Origin: Rhodothermia bacterium
Lineage (GTDB): Bacteria > Bacteroidota > Rhodothermia > Rhodothermales > UBA2364
NCBI GenBank assembly: GCA_017303715.1
Contig: JAFLBZ010000039.1
Coordinates: 1 to 39,286 of the forward strand
DNA length: 39,286 nt
Direction: 5' to 3'
The position numbers were made by a program, and so were the translations under genes. Positions 1-24,608 of the stretch are shown piece by piece. Positions within the stretch are counted from its first letter, which is position 1, and each line of letters starts with the position of its first letter. Under the pieces are notes generated by a model, which did not search any database, had not been told where the DNA came from, and saw only the letters and a list, made by a program, of their open reading frames with translations.

Positions 1-480
1 CGAACAGCCCAGCCCCGTAGGGGTGGCATCTTCGTAGAAACCCGTTCCTAACGCACAGCCCAGCCCCGTAGGGGTGGCATCTTCGTAGAAAATCGTTCCC
101 AACGAACAGCCCAGCCCCGTAGGGGTGGCATCTTCGTAGAAACCCGTTCCTAACGCACAGCCCAGCCCCGTAGGGGTGGCATCTTCGTAGAAAATCGTTC
201 CCAACGAACAGCCCAGCCCCGTAGGGGTGGCATCTTCGTAGAAACCCGTTCCTAACGCACAGCCCAGCCCCGTAGGGGTGGCATCTTCGTAGAAAATCGT
301 TCCCAACGAACAGCCCAGCCCCGTAGGGGTGACATCTTCGTAGAAAATCGTTTCCGACGCACAGCAAAGCCCCGTAGGGGTGGCATCTTCGTAGAAATTC
401 GTCATGAAACGCACAGCAAAGCCCCGTAGGGGTGGCCTCTTCGTAGAAAATCGTTCCCGACGCACGGCATTCGCCTTTAT
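1..480. repeat. 51-bp tandem hairpin array (9 copies, left edge open)
   Basis: Nine head-to-tail copies of a 51-bp unit begin near positions 10, 61, 112, 163, 214, 265, 316, 367 and 419; only the last step is 52. Each unit contains the hairpin CCCC-GTA-GGGG followed by TTC-GTA-GAA, two stems with the same GTA loop. In the first seven copies the linker alternates between two forms, giving a 102-bp higher-order period. Copies eight and nine have AGCAAAGCCCC in place of AGCCCAGCCCC and match the isolated copies seen at 664 and in the array near 24,000. The array runs off the left edge, so its full length is unknown. No convincing gene lies in it. Confidence 0.95.
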
Positions 481-1110
481 CCATCTTTCAGGGCTAAAGC
501 CCTATGATTGGGGCCACTCTTCTCACCGCCTTGAAGGGCGGAGTTAGTGTTTTGGCTTTCCTCTCCGCGCTCTTGCGTGACGTTGCGAGACGCCTTATAA
601 CCCCATGCTTTAGCGTGGGGTTTTGTGCAGGTGGCCAATCTTCGGCTTTAGCCGTGACTAATCAAAGCCCCGTAGGGGTGGCATCTTCGTAGAAACCCGT
701 TTCCGACGCACGGCATTCGCCTTTATCCATCTTTCAGGGCTGAAGCCCTATGATTGGAGCCACTCTTCTCACCGCCCTAAAGGACGGCGTTAGTGTTCAG
801 GGCTGAAGCCCTCTGGTGTTCGCATGCCGTTCTCACCGCCCTGAAGGACGGCGTTAGTGTTCAGGGCTGAAGCCCTCTGGTGTTCGCGTGCCGTTCTCAC
901 CGCCCTGAAGGACGGCGTTAGTGTTCAGGGCTGAAGCCCTCTGGTGTTCGCATGCCGTTCTCACCGCCCTAAAGGACGGCGTTAGTGTTTTTTGTGCCGT
1001 TCTCTCTGCGCTCTTGCGTGACGTTGCGAGACGCCTTATAACCCCATGCTTCAGCGTGGGGTTTTGTGCAGGTGGCCGGTCTTCGGCTTTAGCCGTGACT
1101 TGGGAATTTC
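481..1110. repeat. Composite repeat of several hairpin types in fixed order
   Basis: Two consecutive copies of a composite cassette, starting at about 525 and 771. In order, each has: CGCC-CT-GAA-GG-AC-GGCG or a variant; AGGGC-TGAA-GCCCT (in the second copy these two alternate as a 64-bp unit); a GC-rich linker with TCTTGC/GCGAGA complementarity; CCCCATGCTTCAGCGTGGGG; and CGGCTTTAGCCG. The first copy continues with one 51-bp-type unit at 664-705 and a spacer with a further AGGGCTGAAGCCCT at 736-749. Short apparent reading frames here (504-692 and 921-1205) translate the repeat and match each other only because the DNA repeats, so they are not called as genes. Confidence 0.9.
771..1000. repeat. 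64-bp tandem repeat, about 3.5 copies
   Basis: The segment beginning ACCGCCCT recurs at 771, 835, 899 and 963, an exact 64-bp period. Each full copy carries two hairpins, one with a CGCC/GGCG stem and one with AGGGC/GCCCT, plus a GGTGTTCGC linker. Copies differ by single bases, such as CCCTAAAGG versus CCCTGAAGG, and both versions keep the stem and change only the loop. The fourth copy switches after its first hairpin into the GC-rich linker of the composite cassette. Confidence 0.93.
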
Positions 1111-1161: not shown

Positions 1162-3594
1162 TTATTCGATGGTGTAGCGCAATTGAGCAAAAACATTGCG
1201 GGTAGCCAAAGGGAAAAAAGTGCGGGATTCGTTGCCATGCAGTAGAATTTTATCGTTCAGTAAATTGTTGAGGTCAATGGATAGTTGTAGGTTTTTGGCG
1301 CGTATTTGGCTTGGTTGGAATTGCAGAGTGGCATTGATCACGGTAAAGGCATCGTTGGTATCGTTAGGATCGGCAGTGCTGCAACCGCCATTGTCAACAC
1401 AAAAAGCGCCCGTATGTTGTGCGGATAGGGCCATAAAAATGGCCTTATGGCGGAAGGAAAGCCTTAGATTTGCCGTCAAATTTGGGAAGAGTGAGATTGG
1501 GTTCCCGTCACGCAGTAATGGAGTTCCAGACTGGTCATACTCGGTAAATTGGACAAAAATGTGTTTGCCCCACGAGATATTTCCTGACGTTTCAAGTCCT
1601 TTGATCAGGCCAATTGCTCCTTCGGCCTCAATGCCTATATGTTGGGTTTGAGCGGCATTCCCATAACGGGGCACACCAAATTGATCGAGGCCACCGCTGG
1701 GTACAATTTCGTTCCGAAATCCCATAAAATATCCATTGACGCTTAAGCGGGTGATGTCGTTTCGGAAGGCAAAGCCGAGTTCTGTGTTGATGAGTTGTTC
1801 TGGTTTTACCAGAGGACGGGAGAAATCTGTTATTCCATGATTTACCTCAAATTTTGGTGTACTTCCTGCTCCGGCTTCTTCGGCATCGTAAAGTTCCTTT
1901 AGCCGAGGCTCACGGTTTGCAAGGGCAAAACTCCCATATAACGAAGCCGATTTGTTAAGGTTAATGGTAAGGCCAAGTCTCGGATTTATAAATAGATAAG
2001 GAACTGTAAACTTGTTGTTGAAATAGGCTTCCTCAAAGAAACGATAGGCCAATCTGACGGCCTGTACATCGCCTTGGAGTTGTGTGCTACGCCCTATTTT
2101 CTGCAAGTGTGAGGCGTATAAAGCGGTTAATATTTTGCCACCGCGATATTGATAAATGCGGGCATCAGCGTCGCCAATAAGGTTTTCGGGAACGTCGGCA
2201 CTGGCACGTTGGATTCGGCCCCAATGCACGGAGCTATGCCAACGCACCTCGCCACCGATAGTGGTTTGGGCTTGGTTACTTTTATACGACCAAGAGGGTA
2301 ACCAGCCAATATCGGCATTGTTCACCCGCGCGCGTTGGGTGATGGAGGTATTGGGAGAAACCGTATAGAAGTCTTGGTCTCGTTCCGCCGCACCGAGGTT
2401 ATTCCAATTTTCGGGCAAGCGGAAAAAATTTGGAGTTCTCCAAGTAGCATCAAAATCAAAGTAACCACGTCCGATGAAGGCATACAATTTTTGGCTCAAC
2501 GTTTGGTATTTGGCAATGGATTTGTCATACAAAACCTCGAAATGTGGTTGATGAAACCATTCTTGCTCATCAAAATTAGCCGAATAATTTGCACGGCGTT
2601 TTATGACATCTCCGTTGTCCGCTTTGTCTATGCCATAATAAGCCAAACCATCTTTTTGTGGCCCACCCCATGCTTGTATGGTAAGAGAAGCATCTTTTTT
2701 AAGGTGTTTGATACCAGCAAAATATCGCCAGAAATCCGTCCAACTACCCATACGGTAGCCGTCTGATCGTACACGGGAAAGCCGGAAAAAAGACGTGGTT
2801 CCTTTTTTACCCACACCCGAATTAAGCGCAAGGCTAAAGCGTTGTGTATTAAAAGCGCCATAACCGAGTGTGAATTGGGCGTTTCGCTGTGCTTTGTATG
2901 GGTCAGCCACAATATTTATGGCGCCACCAATGCCGGTAGCACCATAAAAAGCGGATCCCGCACCGCGCTGTACCTGAATGTCCGTAATGGCTCCTTGCTG
3001 ATCAAAGAAATTGATCCAATACACGTTGTGGTCTTCGGCGTCATTTTGAGGAATACCGTTCACCGAAACGGCAATACGGCGTTGATCAAAACCGCGCATA
3101 CGCAAGTACGCATAGCCAATGTTATTGCCATTTTCCGAATAATAGGTGACGGAGGGTAATTCTGCAAGGAGCGCTGGCAAGTCGCGGGTTTGTGGACGAG
3201 TTTGGAGGTCACTTGCCGAGAGGTTGGAGAACGTGATGGGGTTGACGTGTAGCTCGGCACGATGTGCCGTTATGGTAACGGCATCGGATTGGAGGCGCTG
3301 TGGCGTCAAGAAAATTTCGATGTTGTCTTGTGTGGTTAATCTTTGGCTGAAGTCCGCATAACCGATAAAAGAAACCCTTAGAACACACACGCAATCTGGA
3401 GCAATAGACATGGCAAACCGTCCGTTAAAATCGGAGGTGGCTCCTTTGACCAAGCGATTTCCATCTATCGTATGAATTTGTATGGTTGCACCCGGAAGGG
3501 GGGTTTGGTTTTGGGCATCCATGACTTTTCCAGAAATGGATTGCGCATGTACGGATTGGCAAAACAATAGAAAAAGCAGTACCGTATATCTCAT
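1162..3594 (-). CDS. TonB-dependent outer-membrane receptor, predicted thiamin uptake
   Basis: 810 residues. A signal peptide (about 1-17, cleavage after VHA) is followed by a carboxypeptidase-regulatory-like beta domain (about 19-105, GKVMDAQNQTPLPGATIQI), a plug domain (about 125-230, with the YLRMRGFDQRRIAVSVNG region) and a long beta barrel to the C terminus. This is the FecA-like layout common in Bacteroidota. Such receptors bring scarce ligands across the outer membrane using TonB/ExbBD energy. Sequence alone would not give the ligand, but the leader at 3673-3748 folds as a TPP riboswitch. TPP-controlled TonB receptors in Bacteroidota are known thiamin transporters, so thiamin or a precursor is the inferred cargo. 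No pnuT or thiamin kinase gene is adjacent. The family assignment is strong; the substrate is inferred from the riboswitch. Confidence 0.92.
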   Translation of the reverse strand: MRYTVLLFLLFCQSVHAQSISGKVMDAQNQTPLPGATIQIHTIDGNRLVKGATSDFNGRFAMSIAPDCVCVLRVSFIGYADFSQRLTTQDNIEIFLTPQRLQSDAVTITAHRAELHVNPITFSNLSASDLQTRPQTRDLPALLAELPSVTYYSENGNNIGYAYLRMRGFDQRRIAVSVNGIPQNDAEDHNVYWINFFDQQGAITDIQVQRGAGSAFYGATGIGGAINIVADPYKAQRNAQFTLGYGAFNTQRFSLALNSGVGKKGTTSFFRLSRVRSDGYRMGSWTDFWRYFAGIKHLKKDASLTIQAWGGPQKDGLAYYGIDKADNGDVIKRRANYSANFDEQEWFHQPHFEVLYDKSIAKYQTLSQKLYAFIGRGYFDFDATWRTPNFFRLPENWNNLGAAERDQDFYTVSPNTSITQRARVNNADIGWLPSWSYKSNQAQTTIGGEVRWHSSVHWGRIQRASADVPENLIGDADARIYQYRGGKILTALYASHLQKIGRSTQLQGDVQAVRLAYRFFEEAYFNNKFTVPYLFINPRLGLTINLNKSASLYGSFALANREPRLKELYDAEEAGAGSTPKFEVNHGITDFSRPLVKPEQLINTELGFAFRNDITRLSVNGYFMGFRNEIVPSGGLDQFGVPRYGNAAQTQHIGIEAEGAIGLIKGLETSGNISWGKHIFVQFTEYDQSGTPLLRDGNPISLFPNLTANLRLSFRHKAIFMALSAQHTGAFCVDNGGCSTADPNDTNDAFTVINATLQFQPSQIRAKNLQLSIDLNNLLNDKILLHGNESRTFFPLATRNVFAQLRYTIE

Positions 3595-3651: not shown

Positions 3652-3672
3652 CGAAACGAAACCATGTTCGCA

Positions 3673-3748
3673 CGATTTTCCTACGCCGGCATGATCCGGT
3701 TCAGGTGCAAAGGGTATGATCTCAGCCCAAAACGGGCACCCCCAATCG
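3673..3748 (-). promoter_or_regulatory. TPP riboswitch (THI element) in the TonB receptor leader
   Basis: Read on the minus strand, the conserved thi-box parts occur in order: P1 CGATT (3744-3748) pairing with AATCG (3673-3677), the GGGGGTGCCC segment, a P3-like stem GCCC-GTTTT-GGGC, CTGAGA (3720-3725), ACCC, ACCTGAAC (3699-3706), the stem CCGGATCATGCCGG, and CGTAGGA (3679-3685). All the hallmark motifs of the aptamer are present and the closing stem pairs. The element ends 78 nt before the receptor start codon. High TPP is expected to turn the receptor gene off. Confidence 0.95.
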
Positions 3749-3780
3749 TTGTTTGTTGCCGCAAACCCCTAAAAGTGCTT

Positions 3781-20369: not shown

Positions 20370-23300
20370 TTAGTATTGTATAGTTTCGGTTGGTTTAAAG
20401 AATTCGATTTGTGCTGCTTGAACAGCATCTTTATACAAAGGCCATACCCGACTAAAAAAGTCGTTTACGGCAGAAACAGCAGTTCGGACAGAGGTTTCCG
20501 CGTGTTCGACAGCCCATTGTTCGGTAAGTCCGGCTGCACTAAAGGAGGAGCCAAGATAGCTCCGTGCATTGCCTAATTTGGCGGAAACGGTATTAGGATT
20601 GCGAGCAATACCTTGCCCTGCTTCCTTGCCCACCATGTTTTCGGCAAGTCCTCGAAGTGTTTCTCCCGCTTCTTTGCCTTTATCTTTTACGGTTTTTGCG
20701 GCTTCATCGGTACGGTCTTTAACCTGTTCTTCGATGAGGCGTAAGACCCGTTGAGCCTCCCGAATTTGATCCATTGCGGCCGTTGCGGCTTCGGTGGCAC
20801 GTTCTACTCGTTGTATTAAAAGTTCGTTTGATCCCATCGCCTCTACGGTGGCGGTCTCGTTTGGATCTTTAGTAACGTTTACGTTTTGCTCTGAACGAAA
20901 TTGCCCATAAACGAGGATAACCTTATACGTTCCGGGTAGAACCGAGGCGCCACCGGGTTCGGGAGCTTCTGGATCGGTGGGTTTGGGCTGGTTGGGGCCA
21001 CGTACTCCTTTTCGGTTTAACCCCCAATAAAACCGCTGAACGCCGTCTTCTGCCTTTCGTCGCAAGGTTCGGATTTTTTCACCGCCTTGGTTGTAAATCT
21101 CAATGACAAGGTCATTGGGCAGTTTAGCCTCTTTTCCGGCCCCTTCTTTGGCTTTTGCCATGTTCAAAGCATAGGTAATCATAGCACCACGTGGACGATT
21201 TTCGCCTGCAAAAATCCCTGCGCCTACAAAACGTGTGCCCGGCGCCTCCGCCCAATTAGAAAGCGTAGCATCCGGTATCTGGAAAAGGGTTAATGGATTT
21301 TGTAGCTGGTTTTGGTTTTGTGCGATGGTTCTTAGGGGGCGGATGTCATCCAAAACATAAATGCCACGCCCAAAAGTGCCAATCACCAAATCGGCTTCGC
21401 GTGCCTGAAGGGCCAAGTCCATTGTTGGAACGGTTGGGAAGCCTGCTTTCCATTTTGCCCAGTTTTTTCCAAAGTCAATGCTTACATAAAGCCCCGTTTC
21501 CGTACCCAAGAAAAGCAAATTGGGCTGTTCTGTGTCTTGGAGAACCGTATGTGCATAACCGAAAACCTGTTGTGGTTGCACAATACGTGTCCATGTTTTT
21601 CCGAAATCCTTGGTATGGAAAACATAAGGCGCCCAGTCATTCATCCGGTGATTGTCCATCACGACGAATGCCTCTGCCGGATTATACGTCGAGGCACGAA
21701 TTTGCGGAATCCAGATGTTCGCCGGAAGTCCTTTTATGGTGGGGGTGACATTGGCCCAAGTTTGCCCGCCGTCTTGTGTAATTTGCACCAAACCATCATC
21801 CGATCCCACCCAGATAAGCCCTTGTTGTAAAGCGCTTGGCGAAATGGCCACGATAGTGGTGTGGTTTTCCGCACCAGTTTGGTCTATAGTTAAACCGCCA
21901 GACTCCGCTTGTTTTTGTTTTTCTGGATTGTTGGTCGTGAGATCTGGCGAGATGATGCTCCAAGAGTCACCTCGGTCGGTGGATTTGTGGAGGAATTGGC
22001 TCCCGTAATAGATTGTGGTTGGGCTAAAGGGGTCAGTGGCGAATCCCGCATTCCAGTTGAAGCGCAAAGGTTTGTCTTCAGGATGCTTGGGCTTGATGAA
22101 TTTCTGTTCCCCACCAACCAAATCGGTGCGAACCAAGCCACCCTGTTGTGACATTGCATAGACAAAACGGCTATTTGATGGATCGGGTGCAACATCAAAT
22201 CCGTCACCAAAGCAGACTTCCTCCCACATGCTGTTTCGTATCCCACCGGCACGCCACACATAAGCGGGGCCACGCCAAGACCCGTTGTCTTGAAGACCGC
22301 CATATACATTATAAGGCAAGGCATTGTCCACATTAACATGGTAAAACTGTGCCAAAGGTAGGTTCTCAACAAAGCGCCATGTTTTTCCGCGATCCTGTGA
22401 AATGGCAAGGCCGCCATCATTCCCCACCATCATATGGTCTGGATTGTTGGGATGGATCCACATCGCATGATAATCGGGATGAATGTCGTTGTAAGGAATT
22501 AAGTTTTGAAAAGTCTTGCCACCGTCTTCAGACTGATCTACCACCACATGAAGGTTGTAAATTCGGTTTTCATTGCCCGGATCTACGTAAATTTCCCAGA
22601 AGTAAAACGGACGGCTGCCAATGTTTTTATCCGTTACAATAGTCCAAGAATAACCACCATCGGACGATTTATACAAAGCATTCTTCTTAGATTCGATCAG
22701 TGCATACACAAGATTGGGACGGGAAGGTGCAATCGCAATTCCCGTGCGGCCAAGATCACCTTCGGGCAATCCGTCTTCCTTACCAAGGCGCTTCCACGTA
22801 TTGCCCGCATCGGTGGTGACAAACAGACCGGATCCAGAACCGCCAGACTTGAAAAACCAAGGCCAACGGCGGTGTTCCCACATGCCTACAATCAACTTCT
22901 TTGGGTTTTGGGGATCCATAACCATATCGCTGACACCAGAACGGACATCGGTGAACAAAATACGCTGCCATGTCTTGCCGCCATCGGTGGTCTTAAACAC
23001 GCCCCTCGACTCGGTCTCGCCCCAAGTTGGGCCTTTTGCACCGATATACGCCACTTCGGGGTTGGTGGGGTCAAGGAGGATACGGTGGATGTTCCTTGTG
23101 TTTTCCAATCCCAAGTGAATCCAAGTGCGTCCTCCATCTAAGGATTTATATACTCCATTGCCGCCATTTTCCGAGTTTCTGGGATTGCCCTCCCCAGTTC
23201 CCACCCAAACAATGTCGGGGTTCTGCTGATTTACGGCAAGTGCGCCAATTCCCGCTACGGCCTGCTCGTCAAAAATAGGCGTCCACGCCACCCCGCCATC

Positions 23301-23537
23301 AGTGGACTTCCAGACCCCGCCCGATGCCGCGCCTACATAGGCCACGGTTGGATTGTTATGAACGACGGCTATAGCTGTTACCCGCCCACTCATTCCAGCG
23401 GGGCCAATACTGCGGGCCTTCATGCCGGAGAACTTAGAGGTTTCTAAGGGTTGGGCAACCACAAAAGGAAAGGTGGAAAAGCAAAATAACAGGACAAATC
23501 CAAGATTTATCCACAAAGAAACGGCTTTGAAACGCAT
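20370..23537 (-). CDS. Exported sortilin/VPS10-like Asp-box propeller protein (paralogue 2)
   Basis: 1,055 residues. The signal peptide runs to about residue 28 (FVVAQPLE). Eleven Asp-box motifs are visible, among them WKSTDGGVAW, YKSLDGGRTW, FKTTDGGKTW, HKSTDRGDSW and QITQDGGQTW, so the propeller count matches the paralogue at 15745-18864. A strand module (FAGENRPRGAMITYAL, then LPGTYKVILVYG) and a helical C-terminal segment of about 150 residues follow. The two genes face each other, separated by the epimerase gene and the decayed repeat. No type IX secretion C-terminal signal is obvious. The biochemical role is unknown; surface polysaccharide or peptide binding is an inference. Confidence 0.87.
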   Translation of the reverse strand: MRFKAVSLWINLGFVLLFCFSTFPFVVAQPLETSKFSGMKARSIGPAGMSGRVTAIAVVHNNPTVAYVGAASGGVWKSTDGGVAWTPIFDEQAVAGIGALAVNQQNPDIVWVGTGEGNPRNSENGGNGVYKSLDGGRTWIHLGLENTRNIHRILLDPTNPEVAYIGAKGPTWGETESRGVFKTTDGGKTWQRILFTDVRSGVSDMVMDPQNPKKLIVGMWEHRRWPWFFKSGGSGSGLFVTTDAGNTWKRLGKEDGLPEGDLGRTGIAIAPSRPNLVYALIESKKNALYKSSDGGYSWTIVTDKNIGSRPFYFWEIYVDPGNENRIYNLHVVVDQSEDGGKTFQNLIPYNDIHPDYHAMWIHPNNPDHMMVGNDGGLAISQDRGKTWRFVENLPLAQFYHVNVDNALPYNVYGGLQDNGSWRGPAYVWRAGGIRNSMWEEVCFGDGFDVAPDPSNSRFVYAMSQQGGLVRTDLVGGEQKFIKPKHPEDKPLRFNWNAGFATDPFSPTTIYYGSQFLHKSTDRGDSWSIISPDLTTNNPEKQKQAESGGLTIDQTGAENHTTIVAISPSALQQGLIWVGSDDGLVQITQDGGQTWANVTPTIKGLPANIWIPQIRASTYNPAEAFVVMDNHRMNDWAPYVFHTKDFGKTWTRIVQPQQVFGYAHTVLQDTEQPNLLFLGTETGLYVSIDFGKNWAKWKAGFPTVPTMDLALQAREADLVIGTFGRGIYVLDDIRPLRTIAQNQNQLQNPLTLFQIPDATLSNWAEAPGTRFVGAGIFAGENRPRGAMITYALNMAKAKEGAGKEAKLPNDLVIEIYNQGGEKIRTLRRKAEDGVQRFYWGLNRKGVRGPNQPKPTDPEAPEPGGASVLPGTYKVILVYGQFRSEQNVNVTKDPNETATVEAMGSNELLIQRVERATEAATAAMDQIREAQRVLRLIEEQVKDRTDEAAKTVKDKGKEAGETLRGLAENMVGKEAGQGIARNPNTVSAKLGNARSYLGSSFSAAGLTEQWAVEHAETSVRTAVSAVNDFFSRVWPLYKDAVQAAQIEFFKPTETIQY

Positions 23538-23790
23538 GAAAAAGGGTGTTTGGTCTTTGGGTGATAAACGTCACAAGATAAGTATAAAACAATGGAAGCG
23601 TTCACAAGACGGTAAGGATATTTTTGGTGAGATCAAGAATCTGTATCTCCCATGGGGTGATTGAGAAAGAGGGGAAGAGGTGGCTTTTAAAGAAAGGATT
23701 CGTAATTTTAATTTAGGGATTGGGGAGCAAAATTGCTTCTTTCACTTTGTAGGTCAAGGGTTGTTTGGTGGTAAACATTAGTGTTTTTTG
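23538..23790. other. Gene-free leader region
   Basis: This stretch lies upstream of the leftward propeller gene and runs up to the hairpin array. It is A/T-rich, has no convincing reading frame and shows no clear Bacteroidota -7/-33 promoter pair. It presumably carries the promoter of the propeller gene. Confidence 0.5.
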
Positions 23791-24384
23791 TGCCGATCTG
23801 ACCGCCCTGAAGGACGGCGTTACTGTTCAGGGCTGAAGCCCTCTGGTGCTTGCGTGCCGATCTCACCGCCCTAAAGGACAGCGTTAGTGTTCTTTGTGCC
23901 GTTCTCTCCGCGCTCTTGCGTGACGTTGCGAGACGCCTTTTAACCCCATGCTTCAGCGTGGGGTTTCGAGCAAGACCCGATCTTCGGCTTTAGCCGTGAC
24001 TAATCAAAGCCCCGTAGGGGTGGCATCTTCGTAGAAACCCGGTTCCAACGCGCGGCATTCGCCTTTATCCATCTTTCAGGGCTAAAGCCCTATGATTGGG
24101 GCCACTCTTCTCACCGCCCTGAAGGACGGCGTTAGTGTTCAGGGCTGAAGCCCTCTGGTGCTTGCGTGCCGATCTGACCGCCCTAAAGGACGGCGTTAGT
24201 GTTCTTTGTGCCGTTCTCTCCGCGCTCTTGGGTGACGTTGCGAGACGCCTTTTAACCCCATGCTTCAGCGTGGGGTTTCGAGCAAGACCCGATCTTCGGC
24301 TTTAGCCGTGACTAATCAAAGCCCCGTAGGGGTGGCATCTTCGTAGAAACCCGTCATGAAACGCGCGGCCCAGCCCCGTAGGGG
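23791..24384. repeat. Second composite hairpin array, 312-bp macro-repeat
   Basis: Two copies of the composite cassette seen at 481-1110 lie in the same orientation, beginning at 23801 and 24113, exactly 312 bases apart. Each starts with two 64-bp steps (23801/23865 and 24113/24177), followed by the GC-rich linker, CCCCATGCTTCAGCGTGGGG, CGGCTTTAGCCG and one copy of the 51-bp unit. The first copy continues through the AGGGCTAAAGCCCT spacer into the second. The second breaks off inside an additional partial 51-bp unit at about 24384. The array lies between the divergent propeller and cellulase genes. Confidence 0.93.
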
Positions 24385-24608
24385 AGACAGTTCAGGCTAT
24401 AACCATGATGGACTGTGTAAGTAAGCCATGAATAGGGAAATGCAGACAACAACCAGCGCAAAGCAATTTGCCCTTAGCCTTCACAGCATTTGGCCGTTCA
24501 TTACTTTGTTGGAAATCAAGTTCCACTTATCAAAAAAGATGGTTCGATTTGTATTTTGAAAGTGCATCATTCTTAACCTCCTTTTTTCCTAAATTGATCT
24601 TTGCAAAT
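24385..24608. other. Leader region of the GH9 gene
   Basis: Unique sequence between the hairpin array and the cellulase start. ACAGT (24388-24392) can pair with ACTGT (24412-24416). A TACTTTG at 24502-24508 vaguely resembles the Bacteroidota -7 element but lacks a properly spaced -33 partner. No gene is seen. Confidence 0.4.

Follow-up and report, generated by a model that had tools for sequence, protein, structure and literature searches.

The left end of the window (the whole stretch of DNA analysed, 39,286 nucleotides, which is contig C39 of a Bacteroidota genome of 4.35 Mb in 62 contigs) carries a series of short hairpins that differ in their stems, repeat one apex and follow each other in a constant order. 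The question raised by this locus is to which class of repeated element such hairpins belong, and which enzyme would read them.

Hairpin content, order and genomic setting of the arrays

Positions 1-1110 of the window form one array, whose left side continues past the contig end. The leftward 51-nt G repeat (CCCC-GTA-GGGG, 1-470), omitted by a preliminary description of this DNA, belongs to it, and in each G unit a GCCCC-GTA-GGGGT hairpin precedes GRCATCTTCGTAGAAA or a near variant. The four hairpins which that description had named, H1 (AGGGCTRAAGCCCT), H2 (CCGCCYTRAAGGRCGG), H3 (CCCCATGCTTYAGCGTGGGG) and H5 (CGGCTTTAGCCG), were all present, and their copies are listed in Table 1. Their general forms are AGGGC-TRAA-GCCCT for H1, CCGCCC-TGAA-GGACGG for H2, CCCCATGC-TTYA-GCGTGGGG for H3 and CGGC-TTTA-GCCG for H5. 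In the first H2 copy of the window a single T.G lies beside the loop and all else is paired.

Table 1. Features of the two arrays of the window and of the gene next to the first (H, hairpin; G, G repeat).
Feature	Position	Strand	Remark
G repeats, 9 tandem copies of a 51-nt unit	4..465	+	tandem-repeat detection
H1, cassette 1, AGGGC-TAAA-GCCCT	490..503	+	
H2, cassette 1, CCGCCT-TGAA-GGGCGG	526..541	+	
H3, cassette 1, CCCCATGC-TTTA-GCGTGGGG	601..620	+	TTCA sister copy folded
H5, cassette 1, CGGC-TTTA-GCCG	643..654	+	sister copy folded
Lone G repeat separating cassettes 1 and 2	667..695	+	
H1, cassette 2	736..749	+	
64-nt unit with H2 and H1, 3.5 tandem copies	766..989	+	H2 starting at 772, 836, 900 and 964; H1 at 799-812, 863-876 and 927-940
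Conserved segment GCGCTCTTGCGTGACGTTGCGAGACGCC, possible fifth stem of the preliminary description	1008..1035	+	shuffle test
H3, cassette 2, TTCA loop	1042..1061	+	
H5, cassette 2, array terminus	1084..1095	+	
TonB-dependent receptor gene, neighbour	1162..3594	-	array 3' of gene
Second array, H2-H1-H2-H3-H5-G-H1-H2-H1-H2-H3-H5-G-G	23791..24390	+	

Hairpins were counted across the genome by pattern and BLAST searches and in stretches fetched around the matches. The exact sequence GGGCTRAAGCCC, whose count against a backwards-read control served as the genome-wide test of chance, occurred in 65 copies in the 4.35 Mb, with none in the control, and the core pattern of the G unit gave 57 matches, again with none when read backwards. 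A census of loops was then made in 212 kb of fetched array loci, with strands merged, for C-NNNN-G hairpins with at least five of six pairs. Loops TGAA (96) and TAAA (57) accounted for 153 of the 383 hairpins, a share that measures dominance within arrays because the loci had been selected for holding repeats; CGTA, the loop of the G repeat, accounted for 41 of the 383, and every other loop for at most 6. A census limited to perfect 5-bp stems undercounted the TRAA family owing to a conserved mismatch. As C-TRAA-G is C-TTYA-G on the opposite strand and both orientations were found within arrays, the proposal of one apex in two orientations was borne out.

The order of the elements, followed in about 30 arrays, was G(CCCC-GTA-GGGG)n, H1, H2, H3, H5, G, with H1 and H2 oriented one way and H3, H5 and G the opposite way. 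Step counts over 32 arrays were 57 for G to G, 28 for G to H1, 48 for H1 to H2, 26 for H2 to H3, 31 for H3 to H5, 31 for H5 to G, 19 for H2 to H2 and 12 for H2 to H1, all remaining steps occurring at most 4 times each. These counts exclude a random order, named in the preliminary description as an outcome against its reading, and they sustain its claim of a constant order. Its claim of at least five stems was not borne out for the segment at 1008-1035, taken to be the unnamed fifth stem, which folded no better than shuffled sequences (z of -0.62 on the plus strand and -0.31 on the minus strand). The frequency of the apex and the regularity of the order both greatly exceed chance. Since the spacers of the cassette are homologous across loci, at about 73-92% identity, whole cassettes are what is copied, and the fixed order may result from inheritance without being a requirement. 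The multi-hairpin order, described earlier as unusual, has a precedent in BIMEs and may be explained by copying of whole cassettes.

Cassettes were found at dozens of loci on many contigs. Among 25 large arrays, the flanking genes were convergent in 9, tandem in 8 and divergent in 1, with a contig edge in 7, and none of the 25 was covered by an ORF of at least 120 aa. Therefore a protein-coding repeat was ruled out. The arrays are intergenic and avoid divergent gene pairs; between tandem genes they lie in either direction relative to the genes. A CRISPR or an integron was rejected by inspection, the tandem units having neither unique spacers nor cassette ORFs. The arrays at contig ends lie at window position 1 and at the ends of C45, C46, C50, C25, C51 and C37; with 7 of the 25 large arrays so placed, the repeats interrupt the assembly, and the counts given here are probably below the real copy numbers. 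The same genome also holds a second type of array, made of 52-54-nt tandem GATGGCAGGGCTGACGCCCCTG hairpins (L230-L235; on C13, C24, C20, C6 and C9), which at several loci continues with inverted GGAGC-GTA-GCTCT hairpins.

Elsewhere in the phylum the cassette was absent from the 393 other genomes sampled, both congeners included (present in 1 of 394), the sole other match being one G-like match in one genome. A scan of genome contigs with a neighbouring gene yielded one relative, used for synteny only; the closest relative found that bears a name is Bacteroidetes bacterium UBA2364. In relative L062, the gene after the TonB-dependent receptor gene is groES, and the array is missing between the two; in both congeners, the sequence conserved upstream of the gene at 20370-23537 leads to a different neighbour, again with no array. 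The comparison with L062 and the two congeners gave no clean case of an empty insertion site, because the second array has a different right neighbour and the first one leaves the contig. Synteny with both congeners breaks at this second array (window 23588-24468): the sortilin/BNR gene at 20370-23537 keeps its upstream sequence, and its neighbour here is a glycosyl hydrolase family 9 gene. A TPP riboswitch (RF00059, 74.6 bits) was also detected in the window, at 3661-3753 on the minus strand, upstream of the TonB-dependent receptor gene.

Pairing and folding of the stems

In both H2 and H3, one stem position is a C.A mismatch when the TRAA strand is read and a G.T pair on the TTYA strand (68 of 71 copies of H2 and 44 of 45 of H3), and full folding is limited to the TTYA strand, which is the minus strand for H2 and the plus strand for H3. 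The stems had been described as staying paired; for H2 and H3 this pairing is incomplete on the TRAA strand. When read in the TTYA orientation, H2 and H3 both carry TAAC at the 5' foot. H1 and the reverse complement of H5 have a common foot and core (TCAGGGCTAAAGCC / TCACGGCTAAAGCC); H1 and H5 are thus another pair of inverted relatives, and the layout of the cassette is A, B ... B', A'.

Covariation of the TRAA stems was sought within the genome and almost none was found: the stems of H1 and H3 are near-invariant, and the variants of H2 include mismatches as well as pairs. The claim that the stems differ and yet stay paired did not stand in this sense, and the lack of stem covariation, which the preliminary description had set as a ground for refutation, was largely what was observed for the TRAA stems of this genome.

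As the strand of full folding differs between H2 and H3, no single transcript folds all of the elements fully, which speaks for their being read as single-stranded DNA; the C.A/G.T asymmetry likewise favours recognition of a single strand. RNA folding of the cassette beat shuffled sequences. A long-range fold in which H1 pairs with H5 and encloses the rest was predicted by minimum free energy and rejected, as the complementarity of the arms beside H1 and H5 had a mean of 13.64, compared to 13.43 for letter-shuffled arms and 13.46 for swapped partners. A search of the array with Rfam gave nothing at gathering score, and the best match, to anti-hemB, was discarded as chance (18.6 bits vs a cut-off of 49.5). 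Thus neither a curated-model match nor one strand folding all elements was found to identify the arrays as a structured RNA.

Y1 transposases of the genome and hairpins beside subclass 1.2 genes

Two Y1 transposases are encoded in the genome, on contigs C61 and C7. The C61 protein (C61:417-881) is intact, 154 aa long and the one gene found with PF01797 in the genome; it is nearest to TnpA structures of the IS200 type, passes NF033573 and fails NF047646. It carries the motifs DHTH, WQ and Y---Q--HH, and with the DH.H, WQ and Y---Q--HH signature and about 150 residues that define subclass 1.2, it is assigned by sequence to this subclass of Y1/HUH enzymes. Motifs, a host in the Bacteroidota and low copy number also agree with the subclass 1.2 of Quentin et al. 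(2018; PMC6006769), a survey in which these proteins had been described without REPs and without IS properties.

The C61 gene does not lie within an H1-H5 array. Upstream of it are GGAGC-GTA-GCTCT hairpins in a tandem of about 53 nt, plus CAGGGCTACCGCCCC, and a related array on C41 reads GGGGC-GGTA-GCCCC-GACATCTTCGTAGAAA. The hairpins at both places carry GACATC(A/T)TCGTAGA, which is the flank of the array G repeat (GRCATCTTCGTAGAAA) attached to other stems. In addition, CAGGGCTACCGCCC at C61:174 resembles H1 (CAGGGCTRAAGCCC). A related gene of congener G002 has AGGGGC-GTA-GCCCT-GACATC upstream and CAGGGCTARCGCCCC downstream, and H1 is similar to such downstream hairpins. What stands beside the C61 gene is thus the flank of the G type, joined to other stems, and a hairpin resembling H1; H2, H3 and H5 are absent there, and close counterparts of H2 or H3 were found beside none of the transposases examined. 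The presence of two Y1 transposases, one of them flanked by hairpins with the G flank, upholds the parallel with REP sequences and RAYT proteins that had been drawn earlier. An IS200/IS605 insertion sequence would be present as several transposase copies, nearly identical and bounded by LE and RE; with one such gene in the genome and gene-free arrays, the repeats do not have this make-up. In contig C22 of G002, a fragment of a Y1 transposase with YIHQNP, subclass 2.6-like, was seen right after a CAGGGCTACCGCCCC hairpin (L238:433-606).

Relatives of the C61 protein were found in 93 of 296 phylum genomes sampled, and the Y---Q--HH signature was present in 30 of 30 related genes. Flanks of 200 nt on each side were surveyed for hairpins of at least 5 bp at 28 loci that were best matches, the source genome and G002 being left out and the flanks of L167 and L168 being near-identical. 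Hairpins were present upstream in 22 of the 28, downstream in 26 and on both sides in 20, compared to 2.1 upstream and 2.4 downstream in dinucleotide shuffles, 1 of 28 in a 200-nt stretch inside the gene and, for the genes of the window, 1 of 23 upstream and 2 of 23 downstream; intrinsic terminators could add some of the downstream hairpins. As upstream loops were mostly GTA/GAA and downstream loops TAC/TTC, the two flanks are inverted, and inverted hairpins with a spacing of about 50 nt are seen around subclass 1.2 genes (L161:1-420 and relatives L166-L193). The absence of flanking REP or IS200-type hairpins in the 2018 survey, which is a remark of that survey and does not define the protein, is therefore contradicted here, for the C61 gene and most of the 28 relatives.

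When sites were chosen by the flank motif alone, regardless of pairing, 9 of 42 were fully paired, with nine different stems, against an expectation of 0.5 from shuffled partners. Covariation is thus clear for the GTA-type hairpins only, between genomes and around transposase genes. A C-TTTA-G apex was also found beside subclass 1.2 genes at L176, L182 and L187, with AATATTGGTAGA or CATATTGGTAGA as its flank in L176 and L182.

The C7 protein (C7:49572-50186, L249:1573-2187; 204 aa) was found by NF047646. By its motifs MPNHVHG, WQ and YIWNNP it is classed as a subclass 2.4-like RAYT, and it is another candidate enzyme for the arrays. Its gene contains an in-frame palindrome, GTAGAGACGTTGC...GCAACGTCTCTAC, unlike the array hairpins; palindromes within the gene are a known habit of subclass 2.4.

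The complete genome G021, from the same order, has 42 copies of GGGCTRAAGCCC in GTAG-tagged inverted doublets. The hairpins of these doublets (L115-L128) have TTCA and TTTA loops (GTAGCCGCACCCTTCACGGGTGCG ... CCCGGGCTAAAGCCCGCGGCTAC). A first reading that G021 has the repeats and no Y1 transposase, based on the lack of a PF01797 match, was overturned by NF047646, which finds a subclass 2.4-like gene, the only Y1 gene of that genome. As copies of the apex occur with only this gene, the apex does not go with subclass 1.2 alone, and TRAA/TTYA may be a favoured loop of single-stranded DNA that different Y1 enzymes accept.

Relation to REP systems and origin of the arrays

The GTAG or GTGG tag at the foot is the hallmark of class 2 REPs, and the REP systems characterised so far are mostly proteobacterial and based on the GTAG foot. 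The arrays consist of many short, mostly intergenic palindromes and place inverted elements in tandem mosaics, as REP/BIME elements do. On neither strand does the foot of H1, H2, H3, H5 or G carry GTAG or GTGG, and for lack of the GTAG foot they are not REPs by the strict definition and represent a variant. The REPs and BIMEs of Escherichia coli (y, z1, z2; TnpAREP subclass 2.2) are likewise inverted tandem mosaics of intergenic hairpins with a conserved stem mismatch, but they have a GTAG foot and an AA-GC bulge, both missing here. Moreover, the loop sequence of the E. coli REP is not read by its enzyme (PMC8266576), whereas in the present arrays it is the apex that is shared, and the order of five elements is kept. 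The group 3 TnpAREP system REPtron Mb, from Marinomonas sp. MWYL1, likewise has a short hairpin with a TTTA loop, for which the rule is T, T, any base, A (PMC8266576); the array loops TTTA and TTCA differ only at the third position, which is free under this rule. It differs in the TnpA subclass, in a GTAG two bases from the foot and in having no five-element cassette. The REPINs of Pseudomonas and their RAYTs share the dispersed inverted REP doublets tied to a Y1 transposase, but these are GTAG-tagged doublets, whereas the present arrays have at least five hairpin types and a 51-nt tandem repeat without a GTAG foot.

On this comparison, the arrays are very probably REP/BIME-type DNA elements of some sort, and the more specific reading, in which the C61 subclass 1.2 TnpA is the predicted enzyme, is favoured with less assurance. 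Judged by the common flank, the link between this protein and the G repeat is good; for H1 and H5 a link is plausible, and for H2 and H3 it is hypothetical. In the favoured reading, a Y1 (HUH) transposase would recognise the hairpins in single-stranded DNA, most likely at replication, cut beside them and rejoin the ends, by which composite units would spread and multiply. The 154-residue C61 TnpA would bind and cut the array hairpins in trans, and we infer that its recognition set, which would include G, extends to H1 and H5, and to H2 and H3 as well. The common C-TTYA-G apex would be a recognised or structurally favoured loop, the fixed order would go back to one founder composite copied as a unit, and the 51-nt and 64-nt tandem expansions would have arisen by slippage or unequal recombination.

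A cassette of two origins, in which G, H1 and H5 would belong to the subclass 1.2 TnpA and H2 and H3 to another or lost Y1 enzyme, the fusion being spread passively or by either enzyme, is considered unlikely. The kinship between H1 and the reverse complement of H5 fits such a mosaic, as do the TAAC and the wobble stem that H3 shares with the reverse complement of H2 in a different design, and the genome does have a second, subclass 2.4-like RAYT on C7; however, the C-TTYA-G apex is common to all, and the C7 palindrome resembles neither H2 nor H3. Somewhat less probable still is that the arrays are relics independent of any enzyme, old composites derived from REPs, maintained and enlarged by replication slippage and recombination. 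Descent can explain the order, whole spacers are copied and tandem expansions of 51 and 64 nt are present, but dozens of loci, together with the absence from the congeners, need a process of dispersal, and the strand with the mismatch was kept in 112 of 116 copies, for which a recent common origin could account as well.

A role for the hairpins in transcripts, as a structured RNA or an element of mRNA 3' ends serving as terminator or stabiliser, appears very improbable. The arrays do lie at gene 3' ends, the cassette RNA folds better than shuffles and REPs elsewhere can act at the RNA level (PMC3733652). Against this, full folding is confined to the minus strand for H2 and to the plus strand for H3, the orientation to genes is inconsistent in tandem contexts, the long-range arms of H1 and H5 are not kept paired and the array has no Rfam match at gathering score.

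Returning to the reading with the C61 TnpA, a broader proposal, which we hold only tentatively, is that the subclass 1.2 TnpA proteins of Bacteroidota and the inverted tandem arrays of hairpins, spaced by about 50 nt, around their genes may constitute an unrecognised class of REP system. In place of a GTAG foot, the cognate hairpins would be marked by an apex of GTA/GAA or TTYA and, downstream, by a flank of the type GRCATnnTnGTAGA, and in this species they would have given rise to a composite of five elements spreading as one unit. If this is true, Bacteroidota would have a system with another recognition code, made of apex and 3' flank, for a transposase subclass described without REPs or IS properties, and it would show how single-strand transposases get domesticated and how their recognition elements diversify. 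It would also provide a testable substrate for a widespread orphan subclass, and would explain the intergenic repeats that break the assemblies of such genomes.
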